From NCBI RefSeq assembly GCF_011516935.1, contig NZ_WOTF01000003.1, positions 62,001 through 126,000 of the forward strand: a stretch of DNA of 64,000 nt, in the 5' to 3' direction. Positions 24,694 to 29,416 of the stretch are shown here, piece by piece. This DNA comes from Acetobacter farinalis. GTDB lineage: Bacteria; Pseudomonadota; Alphaproteobacteria; Acetobacterales; Acetobacteraceae. Below the pieces are notes generated by a model. That model worked only from the letters and a program-made list of their open reading frames with translations, ran no database searches and was not told where the DNA came from. The translations under genes were made by a program, and so were the position numbers. Each line of letters opens with the position of its first letter. Position 1 is the stretch's first letter.

Positions 24694-25686
24694 GTGAAAA
24701 CGCGTTTCCTTACGCCAGCCTTAACCGCTCTTCTGACTGTCAGCCTGCTTGGTGGGCCGCTGGCCCCTCAGGCTGATGCCAGACCGGGCCAGGGTGGCTC
24801 TATGGGTAGCCGTGGCAGCCGGACATGGAGCGCCCCCCCCACAACCAGCACCTCGCCCTTCGGCGCGGCCCCCATGGACCGTTCCATCACGCCGCGCACG
24901 GCTCCGGGCTATAACGGCTATGCCGCCCAGACCCCTTACGGCACCCCCCTCAATCGGGGCATGGGCATGGGCATGGGCACAGCCTCCCGCCACCCGTTTC
25001 TGACAGGGCTTGCTGGAGGCATACTGGGCGCTGGCCTGTTCGGCATGCTGAGCGGGCATGGCTTTATGGGCGGTGTGCATGGTCTGTTCAGCTTTATCGG
25101 ACTGCTGATCCAGATCGGGCTGATTGCGATGGTCGTGATGTGGCTGATCCGGCGTTTTTCAGGCCAGAGCCCCTCACGCAGCGGCGGGTCCGGCTTCAGC
25201 CTGAACCCGGCAGCTTCCGGCCCGGCTCCCGGCGGTTCGCCCGTCGGCCTGCCCGGCGCTGGCAGTTCCGGCGCACTGACCATTACCAGTGCTGATTATC
25301 AGGCCTTCCAGCAGACCCTGCTGGATATTCAGACGGCGTGGAACCAGCAGAACATTCCGGCTCTCCAGCAGATGGCCACGCCGGAAATGGTCTCCTATTT
25401 CAACCAGCAGCTTGCCACTCTGGCCAGCCAGGGTGCCCGCAATGTGGTGTCTGATGTCCACTTCATTCAGGGGGATCTGGCGGAGGCCTGGCAGGAAGCG
25501 GGGATGGATTACGCGACTGTGGCCATGCGCTACAGCCTGATTGATCTGACAACCAATGCCACCGGGCAGGTTATTGATGGCAGCTCCACAGAGCCTGTCA
25601 CCATCACAGAACTCTGGACCTTCACCCGCCCTTCACGCGGGGGCCGCTGGCTTCTCTCCGCCATCCAGCAGGGCCGCAACAGCTAA
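24694..25686 (+). CDS. Membrane-anchored Tim44-like domain protein
   Basis: The protein begins at GTG 24694 (330 residues) with a signal or signal-anchor sequence (residues 1-28). A Gly/Met/Pro/Ser-rich linker follows, then hydrophobic segments near 104-155. The carboxy-terminal domain (about 200-328) has the Tim44-like pattern ADYQAFQQTLLDIQTAWNQ and the ITELWTFTRP ending. Bacterial Tim44-like proteins are membrane-bound and of uncertain role, perhaps chaperone-like or transport-related. A strong terminator follows. Confidence 0.85.
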   Translation: MKTRFLTPALTALLTVSLLGGPLAPQADARPGQGGSMGSRGSRTWSAPPTTSTSPFGAAPMDRSITPRTAPGYNGYAAQTPYGTPLNRGMGMGMGTASRHPFLTGLAGGILGAGLFGMLSGHGFMGGVHGLFSFIGLLIQIGLIAMVVMWLIRRFSGQSPSRSGGSGFSLNPAASGPAPGGSPVGLPGAGSSGALTITSADYQAFQQTLLDIQTAWNQQNIPALQQMATPEMVSYFNQQLATLASQGARNVVSDVHFIQGDLAEAWQEAGMDYATVAMRYSLIDLTTNATGQVIDGSSTEPVTITELWTFTRPSRGGRWLLSAIQQGRNS

Positions 25687-26032: not shown

Positions 26033-26084
<52 letters not shown>

Positions 26085-26123: not shown

Positions 26124-26261
26124 CTAAAAATGCGTGAATGTCAGCCCGTACATGACGCCGGCAATCATCAGCATGAACACCAGCATGGCGCGCAGGCGCT
26201 CTTTCTGGCGGCGCTGCTTCTCCGCAATTTCCTGCGGACTGAGCACAGTCTGGTTTTCCAT
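26124..26261 (-). CDS. 45-residue single-pass membrane protein downstream of ctaB (CoxF-like position)
   Basis: A 45-codon gene starts at the ATG at 26261, which shares its A with the ctaB stop (TGATG), so it should be translationally coupled. The protein is a charged Gln/Glu/Arg/Lys-rich beginning (LSPQEIAEKQRRQKERLR) followed by one hydrophobic helix (residues about 23-40). In other Alphaproteobacteria a similarly small membrane protein lies between ctaB and ctaG in cytochrome oxidase operons. Here ctaG does not follow. Function is inferred only from position and shape. Confidence 0.75.
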   Translation of the reverse strand: MENQTVLSPQEIAEKQRRQKERLRAMLVFMLMIAGVMYGLTFTHF

Positions 26262-27220
26262 CAGCCCCTCCACACCATCACCATATGGTCGGCCAGCATC
26301 CCGCAGAACAACAGGAACAGATAGGCCAGAGAAAAGCGGAAGGAGAGCCGTGCGGCTTTATCACCCGCAAGGCTGATCCCGCTTTCATCCTGCGGCTCAC
26401 GCAGCACCCGCACCGCGCAGGCCACAAACCCGAGCCCCAGCACTACAGCACACCCCGTATAGAGCCAGCCGCACAGATGCAGGACAGACGGCACGAGTGA
26501 AACCGCCAACAGCACAAGCGTGTAAACAAAGATATTCCAGCGCGTATGCCGTGCGCCTTTCACAACAGGCAGCATCGGAATACCGGCCCGGCCATAATCC
26601 TTGCAGGCATACAGGGCGAGCGACCAGAAATGCGGTGGCGTCCAGAAAAAGACGATGCCGAACATCACCACGGGCAGAACAGCCATATGGCCTGTGGCCG
26701 CTGCCCAGCCGATCATGGGAGGGAACGCCCCCGCTGCCCCGCCAATCACAATGTTCTGCGGCGTGGAGCGCTTGAGCCACATGGTGTAGATCACGGAGTA
26801 GAAGAAAATGGAAAATGCCAGAATGCCAGCTGCCAGAGTGTTGGTGGCCATCCACATCAGGCAGACAGACAGACCGGAAAGCCCTACGCCATAAGCCAGT
26901 GCTTCCTGCGGGGGGATACGCCCCCCCGGAATGGGCCGGGTGATGGTCCGCTGCATGACGGCATCAATATCGCGGTCATACCACATATTGATCGCGCCGG
27001 CGGCGCCGGATGCCAGACAGATGCACAGAATGGACACCGCCGCCACAAACAGGTTCAGATGCCCAGGCGCCATGATCATCCCGGCGGCACCGGTAAAGAC
27101 CACCAGAGAGATCACGCGCGGCTTGAGAAGCTGAACCCAGTCCTTTGCTGTGGTGCCAACCCGCTCTGTTTTGAAGCGGACACGGCCTTCTGTGGGAAGA
27201 CCTGCAACACTCTCACTCAT
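26261..27220 (-). CDS. ctaB: Protoheme IX farnesyltransferase (heme O synthase)
   Basis: The 319-residue multi-pass UbiA-family enzyme attaches farnesyl to heme b to give heme O, needed by heme-copper oxidases. The Asp-rich prenyl-diphosphate site NMWYDRDIDAVMQRT lies near 78-92, and the LLKPRVISLVVFTG start of the domain lies near 31-44. Its start overlaps the upstream subunit-I-like gene by four bases. In acetic acid bacteria the known customer would be the ubiquinol oxidase; no other oxidase gene is in this window. Confidence 0.95.
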   Translation of the reverse strand: MSESVAGLPTEGRVRFKTERVGTTAKDWVQLLKPRVISLVVFTGAAGMIMAPGHLNLFVAAVSILCICLASGAAGAINMWYDRDIDAVMQRTITRPIPGGRIPPQEALAYGVGLSGLSVCLMWMATNTLAAGILAFSIFFYSVIYTMWLKRSTPQNIVIGGAAGAFPPMIGWAAATGHMAVLPVVMFGIVFFWTPPHFWSLALYACKDYGRAGIPMLPVVKGARHTRWNIFVYTLVLLAVSLVPSVLHLCGWLYTGCAVVLGLGFVACAVRVLREPQDESGISLAGDKAARLSFRFSLAYLFLLFCGMLADHMVMVWRG

Positions 27221-28482
27221 GACTGCACCGTGCCTTCAACCGCACGCGCGGAAACCGGGGCCGCCTGTTCAGGCTGTGCGCCACCGTCCGGCATCTGGCG
27301 GTTCTGCGTGAAGCTCATCACCATTGTGACGACAAAACACAGGAGAGACGCACCAAGCAGACCGCCGCTCCAGATTTGCCCGACACTGGAAAGAGGAAGA
27401 AAAGACAGGCCTGTTGCCGCAGCCATCAGCCCAAACTGCAAGAGAGCCAGCGGGCGAGGGTACCAGTATCCGCCATTTTCCCCGCGCCACAGATAAAGGC
27501 CGCAGAACGCAGCGTAAACCGCTCCCATTTGCAAGGCGGAGTGAAGCCCCTCTCCCCGCAGGAGTTGTGCAACCCACCCCGTGGAGACAACGGCCAGAAA
27601 CCCGAGCCCCCAGAGCACGGGAATGCGCAGGGAAAGGCGGCTGCGCCATGTGCCTGCCATCCACAGACCTGCCAGAAGAACGGACGCCAGCGTGGAGGTA
27701 AACAGCACAGTGCTTTCACTATGCAACACACTGCCAGCCTGCTGTGCCGTTGCGGCCAGCCCATATGCAAAAACACCCCGCACCCACACAATAGAGGAGG
27801 CGGCGGCTGTCACGCTCATGATTGCGATCACGGGCTTTTCTGAAAAACGGCCACCCCGCGCCCCGGTCTCAAACACCAGACCAAACCCTGCCAGCAAGGT
27901 TACGAGCGTGACGGGTTCCGCAAATCCATCCAGCAGAGGCAGCACATCGGTCTGCGCACCAGACAGAAGCTGATGCGTCATAAACGCGGCCAGCACCGGC
28001 ACGGCCAGAAGCAGAACGGCGGATGCCAGCATTTCCCCCCACACGAAGGGAGAAAACGGCCGTTTTTCTTCCGTATCAGCCCGGCTGTCAAAAAGGGTTG
28101 CGAGCACCACCATAACAGACAGAAGGATGCCCACACACCAGAGCAGAACCGCCGGAGCCTGCGCACCTGTGGTGATCACCATCAAAAGGGACACCGCAAC
28201 AAGGCCAAGACCACCGTAATTCAGCGCGGGCAGCGCCATTCCGGCACGCCCCAGAGCGCGAGGCAGCCAGAGCGTGCTGAACCCGCAGACCAATGCGGGA
28301 ATAACCACAAACAGAAGCATCAGGGGGGCATGAATTTGTTCAAGAAGAGGCCAGAGCCCCCTGTCCGGCAGGAGACCAGCCTGACGCAGCACGGAGGCTC
28401 CTCCGCCAAGCAGACCAGCTACAGCGGCAACAAGCAGATATCCTGCACCCACACCTGCGCCCGATGCTGCCTGCCTGTTCAT
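27217..28482 (-). CDS. Cytochrome oxidase subunit I-like membrane protein lacking binuclear-centre ligands
   Basis: The 421-residue, multi-helix protein aligns by eye with CtaD (subunit I). FVVIPALVCGF (58-68) matches the helix II stretch FVVIPALFGGF, PVLAAFMT matches helix V, and LAGFGL matches LPGFGI. The two low-spin heme histidines are kept (H51; H314 before MGAVY). The CuB histidines are not: the GHPEVY site reads AEPVTL (E189), and WAHHM reads WVRGV (R235, G236). The high-spin heme histidine is G312, and the K-channel lysine is lost. It is too short for full subunit I and cannot form the oxygen site. It begins a three-gene overlapped unit with ctaB and a tiny membrane gene. Confidence 0.8.
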   Translation of the reverse strand: MNRQAASGAGVGAGYLLVAAVAGLLGGGASVLRQAGLLPDRGLWPLLEQIHAPLMLLFVVIPALVCGFSTLWLPRALGRAGMALPALNYGGLGLVAVSLLMVITTGAQAPAVLLWCVGILLSVMVVLATLFDSRADTEEKRPFSPFVWGEMLASAVLLLAVPVLAAFMTHQLLSGAQTDVLPLLDGFAEPVTLVTLLAGFGLVFETGARGGRFSEKPVIAIMSVTAAASSIVWVRGVFAYGLAATAQQAGSVLHSESTVLFTSTLASVLLAGLWMAGTWRSRLSLRIPVLWGLGFLAVVSTGWVAQLLRGEGLHSALQMGAVYAAFCGLYLWRGENGGYWYPRPLALLQFGLMAAATGLSFLPLSSVGQIWSGGLLGASLLCFVVTMVMSFTQNRQMPDGGAQPEQAAPVSARAVEGTVQS

Positions 28483-28684: not shown

Positions 28685-29416
28685 TCAGATCCGGTCGAGT
28701 GTCACGAGTGTGAAAAGACCAAGCGGAGGCACCGGCTGAATGCAGGCCCGCGCCAGATCTTCCGGCGGCAGCAGGGATTCCATAGCGAAATCAGGATGCC
28801 ACCCCAGAGAGCGTGAAGCCCGCGCCATGCCGCGCTCAACCGCGCCCCGCACACCGGTGGGGGCCAGAAAGTGATTCACAAAGAGAATATGGCCGCCGGG
28901 ACGCACAACACGTTTCAGCTCACGCAGCAGCTTGCGCGGATGCGGAACCACTGAGGCCACGAACATGGCCACCGCGATATCGAAAGAGGCATCAGCAAAG
29001 CTGGTCTCTTCCGCATCCATCTCCAGCAGACCGTCCACATTGGTCAGATGCTCTTTCTGCACGCGCTCACGGGCGCGGGCGAGCATGTCACCAGAAAGGT
29101 CGATGCCGGTAATGCATTTGTCCTGAGTGTAAAACGGCAGGGCAAGGCCCGTGCCCACGCCCACTTCCAGCACGTTACGGCCAGACAGGGCGTTAACAGC
29201 CTCAACCGCACGCCGACGGCCCACGCCTGAAATACCGCCAAAAACGGTATCATAGACGCCAGCCCAGCGGCGATAGGCAACTTTTACAGCCTCTGCATCC
29301 AGCGCTGAGCGTGAAGGGGGCGGAACCTGATCTTCACCCTGACCGGGCGGGCATTCGTGGAGAACGTCACTCATGCTCTCTCTGTGCCTGCTCGCGGTAA
29401 TTTCTTCAAGAGCCAC
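28685..29416 (-). CDS. pmtA: Phosphatidylethanolamine N-methyltransferase (Rhodobacter-type PmtA)
   Basis: The class I SAM-dependent fold is shown by the motif I LEVGVGTGLALPFY and the GIDLSGDMLARAR strand, with VKVAYRRWAGVYDTVFGG upstream as in PmtA proteins. PmtA methylates phosphatidylethanolamine to phosphatidylcholine at the membrane; acetic acid bacteria are known to contain phosphatidylcholine. The start is GTG 29416 (243 residues, GGGAAG upstream) or the ATG at 29374. Other lipid or ubiquinone methyltransferases are possible but less similar. Confidence 0.8.
   Translation of the reverse strand: MALEEITASRHRESMSDVLHECPPGQGEDQVPPPSRSALDAEAVKVAYRRWAGVYDTVFGGISGVGRRRAVEAVNALSGRNVLEVGVGTGLALPFYTQDKCITGIDLSGDMLARARERVQKEHLTNVDGLLEMDAEETSFADASFDIAVAMFVASVVPHPRKLLRELKRVVRPGGHILFVNHFLAPTGVRGAVERGMARASRSLGWHPDFAMESLLPPEDLARACIQPVPPLGLFTLVTLDRI

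Follow-up and report, generated by a model that had tools for sequence, protein, structure and literature searches.

The gene that directly precedes ctaB in Acetobacter farinalis, here called dCtaD, encodes what is, judging from comparative sequence analysis, a protein descended from cytochrome c oxidase subunit I that has been maintained without catalytic function. The protein belongs to the COX1 family by descent and fold and is no oxidase. Since the low-spin heme site was kept in every copy checked and the gene for heme O synthase adjoins it, dCtaD is probably a working heme-handling protein and not a dead remnant. That it is a maintained low-spin heme protein we consider very likely.

The gene was studied in a window, by which we mean the whole 64,000-nucleotide stretch of A. 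farinalis DNA that was analysed (see the table). Its reading frame of 421 codons contains no internal stop, and the start of ctaB lies inside the dCtaD stop in a 4-nt ATGA overlap, in agreement with the first-pass annotation, which had described the gene as intact and translationally coupled to ctaB. The Pfam COX1 profile matched the protein at 50.5 bits (cut-off 34.8), and no further domain was found in the Pfam scan of the protein. The score against the NCBIfam CtaD model was 40.3 bits, far under the cut-off of 670.75. The closest named relatives were those of A. cerevisiae and A. malorum, with 79-80% identity. In the same genome, one other COX1-type match was observed, the CyoB of the cyo operon, in which all ligands are present. 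This genome has a single CtaB match, and no cyoE was found beside cyoABCD, which leaves the quinol oxidase operon without a dedicated heme O synthase.

Table. Features of the dCtaD locus, in window coordinates
Feature	Position	Strand	Basis
dCtaD, COX1/CtaD-derived 12-helix membrane protein without binuclear centre, 421 aa	27217..28482	-	Pfam COX1, AF2, Foldseek
Codon H51 of dCtaD, low-spin heme ligand (Paracoccus H94)	28330..28332	-	His in 104/104 deranged homologues
Codon H314 of dCtaD, low-spin heme ligand (Paracoccus H413)	27541..27543	-	His in 103/103 assessable homologues
Codon W115 of dCtaD	28138-28140	-	Trp newly conserved in deranged clade
ctaB, heme O synthase	26261..27220	-	NCBIfam PRK04375.1-2, 333.1 bits vs cut-off 246
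Gene for 45-aa single-helix protein, after ctaB	26124..26261	-	Translation; complete COX clusters have counterparts behind ctaB
Gene for SAM-dependent methyltransferase, a conserved neighbour upstream of dCtaD; start codon uncertain	28685..29416	-	Methyltransf_11

Homologues were collected by a search of 299 genomes of the family, 270 of which had matches, with ordinary CtaD/CyoB and the deranged type mixed. The deranged set was taken from the matches listed there and from further searches that covered named Acetobacter loci, 38 chosen genomes and 49 Acetobacter genomes, and the 104 sequences finally used are a subset of the deranged copies in those genomes. A first alignment held 88 distinct sequences, namely 75 deranged and 13 functional ones (12 CtaD and the CyoB of the own genome); two copies of the window gene, three duplicates and the A. 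papayae fragments were omitted from it. A second set held 84 deranged and 15 functional sequences and omitted L157, a CyoB-like protein. The final set of 104 distinct deranged sequences, which excludes 19 identical sequences and the broken copy L197, reached down to 19% identity. One member, L030, ends at a contig edge ahead of the second histidine, which leaves 103 sequences assessable for the H413 equivalent. Fourteen functional CtaD sequences of our own choosing served as the reference. There were no intermediates among the aligned sequences: either all counted ligands were present, or the GHPEVY histidine, the tyrosine and the lysine were gone. Homologues of dCtaD with ctaB adjoining were observed in many genera of Acetobacteraceae; to judge by kinship and the literature, those outside Acetobacter are probably acetic acid bacteria too. 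In a class-wide profile search of 337 drawn genomes, in which ordinary CtaD/CyoB were mixed in, the best three among the matches listed were dCtaD proteins of Acetobacteraceae.

Alignment with functional CtaD placed H51 and H314 on both low-spin heme positions, whereas E189 stands for the GHPEVY histidine, R235/G236 for the HH pair, G312 for the high-spin heme histidine and L270 for the K-channel lysine. The first-pass annotation, made on the single sequence, had likewise seen the low-spin ligands kept and the catalytic ones replaced, and had proposed a survey of homologues, which bears it out. Ligand positions are named below by Paracoccus numbering, with the roles that they have there. The H94 equivalent was histidine in 104/104 deranged homologues and the H413 equivalent in all 103 assessable ones, while H276 (the GHPEVY histidine), Y280 (the active-site tyrosine) and K354 (the K-channel lysine) were each found in 0/104. 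Two further histidines of the CuB set were retained in a minority (H325 in 31/104 and H326 in 7/104), and the high-spin heme histidine H411 in 2/103. The R473/R474 pair, propionate-binding in CtaD, was present in none of the 103 assessable sequences, mainly by deletion. The arginine in TM I, the partner of the heme a formyl group in CtaD, was retained in 10/104, with glutamine as the commonest residue. Because these arginines are lost, the heme affinity of dCtaD could be low. What defines subunit I is found in dCtaD (the COX1 profile, a predicted 12-helix fold and both low-spin histidines), and what an oxygen reductase needs is missing, namely the high-spin histidine, the three CuB histidines, the active-site tyrosine and the K-channel lysine.

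The retention of the low-spin pair stands out from the general divergence of the protein. In the 75 deranged homologues of the first alignment, the two histidines were invariant and ranked 1st and 4th in conservation of 387 columns; the remaining ligand and channel positions ranked 148th to 331st. Across the 84 deranged sequences of the second set, the 264 positions that are fixed in the 14 functional CtaD had a median retention of 17%, and at least 98% retention was observed only for H51, H314, W148 and W233, the two tryptophans being present in 104/104 members of the final set. Among the 15 histidines fixed in functional CtaD, the low-spin pair was retained and the other 13 were found in 0-33% of the 84 sequences. 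CtaD-fixed residues were best retained in TM II (57%) and TM X (48%), the helices bearing both histidines, and least in TM VIII (19%), VII (24%), VI (27%) and XI (27%), as would be expected if the low-spin pocket were under selection and the binuclear pocket were not. As a separate observation, W115 is tryptophan in 79/84 deranged sequences, and 13/14 functional CtaD have alanine at this position; W115 could be in contact with the heme site or with a partner.

We then compared rates of substitution. In 25 close dCtaD pairs, which draw on 38 sequences and share some of them, dN/dS ranged from 0.058 to 0.316 with a median of 0.103; it lay between 0.06 and 0.14 in 23 pairs, and the two pairs above 0.15 had dS of 0.055 or less. 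A median of 0.10 indicates that dCtaD is not decaying. The median for ctaB in the matching pairs was 0.052, about half that of dCtaD, and functional CtaD gave 0.026-0.065 in three pairs, indicating that the constraint on dCtaD is weaker than that on the oxidase. In two quick trees with long branches, one clade held all of the deranged sequences (74/74 and 83/83), and within this clade the branches of 83 sequences sum to 44.7 substitutions per site. The 104 aligned copies are all single open frames, L030 being cut by the contig end; three of the matches listed that contained one TGA (G647, G658 and G661) proved to be single open frames whose match had overrun the natural end. In A. papayae JCM 25143 (L053, L197), dCtaD is broken into three pieces, and since this draft is 86% complete, sequencing error and true decay are indistinguishable there. 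With this exception, neither the frameshifts and stops nor the dN/dS near 1 of a pseudogene were found, and decay of dCtaD is rejected on dN/dS together with ligand invariance.

AlphaFold2 predicted 12 long helices both for the window dCtaD (pLDDT 89.4, pTM 0.90) and for a member only 19% identical to it (pLDDT 86.1, pTM 0.87). In a Foldseek search of the PDB, the 50 matches listed were COX1-type chains, with query TM-scores of 0.72-0.78, and the profile matched PDB COX1 at an E value of 6e-91. The structure prediction that the first-pass annotation had proposed hence gave a COX1-like 12-helix fold and no other. That annotation had read the pattern as purpose rather than decay and would have given this up had the histidines varied freely, had many frameshifts appeared or had the fold been a different one; its reading is upheld by the invariance of the ligands in the 104 homologues, the median dN/dS of 0.10 in 25 pairs, the predicted fold and the linkage to ctaB, the copy of A. 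papayae being the one broken case.

The surroundings of the gene were found to be strongly conserved. A methyltransferase gene lies upstream on the same strand in 75/75 deranged loci, and in all 74 assessable ones ctaB comes next on that strand, as it does in further loci (9/9 and 40/40, 19 of these 40 being sequences already counted). The ATGA overlap of dCtaD and ctaB was observed in 56 of 83 deranged loci versus 0/14 functional loci. With ctaB starts taken as the nearest ATG, the spacing was -45 to +10 nt in 75/83 deranged loci and +4 to +60 nt in the 14 functional ones. In 6/12 functional loci, the same methyltransferase gene stands ahead of ctaD at a distance of about 1 kb, which leaves room for ctaC; upstream of dCtaD, the window has a gap of about 200 nt that would not hold a subunit II gene, and the absence of ctaC is judged on this gap alone. 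The shared methyltransferase counts against a separate origin of the deranged gene. Such an origin, or a transfer, is also not favoured by the single clade in the quick trees with their long branches. By eye, the CtaB tree looks broadly similar to the CtaD tree, the label "deranged" requiring two changes in it versus one.

A gene for a one-helix protein of 35-66 aa follows ctaB in 14/14 functional and 78/84 deranged loci, L034 being cut inside ctaB; in total, 95/103 loci have a counterpart, the weakest scoring 12-15 bits. Only 6 of 46 members matched Coa3_cc, with a best E value of 0.017, under the cut-off, and no convincing match to the small protein was found in the PDB. Homology to Coa3 is not established by this weak similarity. 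Between the small gene and a Tim44-like gene, the window contains a perfect 13-copy GCCT tandem repeat (26033-26084, intergenic), a candidate hypervariable tract. The Tim44-like domain protein itself (24694-25686, + strand; PF04280, 108 bits) has a glycine-rich N-terminal part and is convergent with the ctaB cluster.

The distribution of dCtaD was examined across genomes. In Acetobacter, a match was found in 47/49 genomes, the two without one measuring 1.5 and 1.7 Mb. Among 38 chosen genomes, 5 of which have a CtaD of functional length, all 23 with dCtaD also have CtaB over the cut-off and a further COX1-type match. In six genomes (G169, G029, G116, G066, G070 and G034, the last 82% complete), neither CtaB over the cut-off nor any COX1-type match was found. 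Other cases are less regular. In G031, ctaB lies at a contig edge and there are zero COX1-type matches, the sole COX1-type match of G012 is a 108-bit fragment, and G077 has CtaB and a gene of CyoB size and no dCtaD, functional CtaD being present in a congeneric genome. The one clear exception is G001 (L156). There, the methyltransferase gene and ctaB directly adjoin, and both dCtaD and the small gene were not found between them; this genome keeps CtaB, which sits on a long branch near the base of the deranged clade of the CtaB tree, inside or beside it, together with two COX1-type genes of CyoB size. G001 indicates that CtaB can do without dCtaD.

A panel of 42 genomes (29 with dCtaD, 5 without CtaB, G001, and 7 with functional CtaD) was searched for accessory proteins. 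SURF1 was found in 0/29, 0/5, 0/1 and 7/7 of these groups, respectively, and Cox11/CtaG, the CuB insertion factor, which is not needed by every heme-copper oxidase, in 0/29, 0/5, 0/1 and 5/7. CtaA was found in 16/29, 0/5, 0/1 and 6/7. A general requirement of dCtaD for heme A was rejected, since 13/29 dCtaD genomes have no CtaA match; these bacteria thus differ in their heme A capacity for the quinol oxidase. Across the genomes examined, dCtaD thus accompanies CtaB and the quinol oxidase and not heme A synthesis. Overall, the co-occurrence favours a role of dCtaD tied to CtaB and heme O.

We propose the following explanation. In one clade of Acetobacteraceae, CtaD lost its O2-reducing site, the K-channel lysine and the RR pair and kept its predicted 12-helix fold, its bis-histidine low-spin heme site and its place beside ctaB. 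The protein would bind one low-spin heme, B or O and not necessarily heme A, and would form a complex with CtaB, perhaps joined by the one-helix protein encoded after ctaB. Within this complex, dCtaD might be a substitute Cox1 platform that keeps CtaB active, and it might hold heme entering or leaving CtaB before its passage to the bo3/ba3 quinol oxidase. We see about an even chance that dCtaD works with CtaB in heme O supply, and we judge it just as evenly balanced that it is a single-heme, non-catalytic COX1 platform which, with CtaB, makes or hands over heme O for the quinol oxidase. More tentatively, and with a likelihood that we place somewhat below even, dCtaD could be a "mock Cox1", a stripped oxidase subunit turned dedicated carrier that, with a Coa3-like small protein, takes heme O from CtaB to a quinol oxidase of other origin. 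If true, the client protein itself would have been turned into a device for handling heme.

Several observations argue for the role in heme O supply: the invariance of the ligands despite 44.7 substitutions per site, the low dN/dS, the linkage and overlap with ctaB, the presence of dCtaD where CtaA has no match, and the 0/29 result for SURF1. The multimerisation of Cox10 in yeast seems to depend on newly made Cox1, according to the relevant part of PMC7140478, and this was counted on the same side. So were the CtaB found in 23/23 dCtaD genomes, the six CtaB-less genomes without a COX1-type match, and the single CtaB and missing cyoE of the own genome.

The main points against this role are G001 and the reported ability of CtaB to function without a partner, A. 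pasteurianus CtaB being reportedly functional in E. coli without dCtaD. G031, with its ctaB and no COX1-type match, the weaker constraint relative to functional CtaD, and the lost RR pair and TM I arginine also speak against it. The linkage to ctaB goes back to the COX cluster, and loss of COX accounts equally well for the missing SURF1 and CtaG. In addition, heme O synthase is the one specific assembly factor known for E. coli bo3 (PMC9145763).

Other readings of dCtaD were weighed against heme O supply. A heme-free or heme-indifferent scaffold stabilising CtaB would fit the linkage and tight overlap with ctaB, and a structural, CtaB-stabilising role was suggested by Degli Esposti et al. 2023 in the passage of PMC10715153 on this gene; it is unlikely in our estimate, as it leaves unexplained the invariance of exactly the two low-spin ligands amid the drift of most CtaD-fixed residues. 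A sensor or valve for the level of heme O or heme B that acts on CtaB would use the conserved ligand pair and the translational overlap, but the Pfam scan found no domain besides COX1, and we regard this reading as quite improbable.

The invariant site would suit a one-heme membrane cytochrome that carries electrons, for example from a quinol or a dehydrogenase, within the membrane half facing the periplasm and is unrelated to heme O supply, bis-histidine low-spin sites being classic electron-transfer sites. One heme cannot span the membrane, however, and such a cytochrome would explain neither why ctaB adjoins dCtaD in every assessable locus nor why dCtaD is missing from the six CtaB-less genomes examined; the upstream gap of about 200 nt in the window is also too small for a subunit II gene. 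We hold this reading to be as unlikely as the scaffold. A non-functional remnant accumulating mutations, as the older literature implies, is scarcely credible. In its favour, most CtaD residues have been lost, CtaB has about half the dN/dS of dCtaD and functional CtaD a lower one too, the A. papayae copy is broken and G001 has none; against it stand dN/dS of 0.06-0.14 in 23/25 pairs, the uninterrupted frame of all 104 aligned copies (L030 cut by the contig end) and ligands invariant over 44.7 substitutions per site.

The gene itself has been reported before. Matsutani 2014 reportedly dealt with the same Acetobacter ctaD gene, used E. coli to express ctaB and ctaA, and is said to have ascribed the lost function of ctaD to accumulated mutations. 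In the pertinent parts of the literature, the cytochrome c oxidase is called incomplete and probably inactive (PMC3751514), ctaB and ctaD are conserved in A. pasteurianus genomes (PMC5158111), and ctaB and ctaA are considered functional COX remnants, with a functional A. pasteurianus CtaB (PMC6915089). One published paper, in the portion on this gene, describes the Acetobacter gene as lacking all cofactor ligands. At the level of sequence, our alignments contradict this view for the low-spin site, A. pasteurianus included, since its copy (L041, identical to L007) has both low-spin ligands. Nothing on the dCtaD gene appears in the available part of PMC4013037 or in PMC4007555, and no title or abstract on conserved low-spin ligands in dCtaD stood among the matches listed in searches of open-access literature, which leaves out most subscription journals. 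As far as these searches show, the conservation across Acetobacteraceae of a single heme site in a non-oxidase COX1 is apparently undescribed.

These findings touch on two open questions, the route of heme O to oxidases and the dependence of mitochondrial Cox10/CtaB assembly on Cox1. A protein of the heme-copper family is under selection without its oxygen site. In bacteria that are easy to grow, evolution appears to have detached the low-spin heme function and the CtaB-linked function of COX1 from catalysis. According to the relevant parts of PMC3751514 and PMC6915089, bd oxidases are also present in A. pasteurianus, so that the relation between CtaB and COX1 could be testable there without abolishing respiration.

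Among known systems, dCtaD resembles CtaD/COX1 of the family A heme-copper oxidases in homology, predicted 12-helix fold, low-spin bis-histidine pair and gene order before ctaB. In contrast to these, it has no complete CuB set, active-site tyrosine, K-channel lysine or RR pair, its homologues keep the high-spin histidine in just 2/103 cases, and ctaG and surf1 were not found in the 29 dCtaD genomes, ctaC being judged absent on the upstream gap alone. It is the same gene as the published "deranged COX1-like protein", "incomplete cytochrome c oxidase" or ctaD of Acetobacter, going by the passages of PMC10715153, PMC3751514 and PMC5158111 that mention it. SURF1 is a heme chaperone, covered along with the CtaA-CtaB complex in the corresponding sections of PMC5249081 and PMC9145763, and dCtaD is proposed to be alike in binding heme for an oxidase of the same superfamily; unlike SURF1, it belongs to another family, with COX1 as its only Pfam match. 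A parallel in mechanism would be the yeast Cox1-Cox10 pair, in which, in the relevant part of PMC7140478, multimerisation of the heme O synthase seems Cox1-dependent. Yeast Cox1, however, goes on to become an oxidase, whereas dCtaD would be a permanent stand-in.
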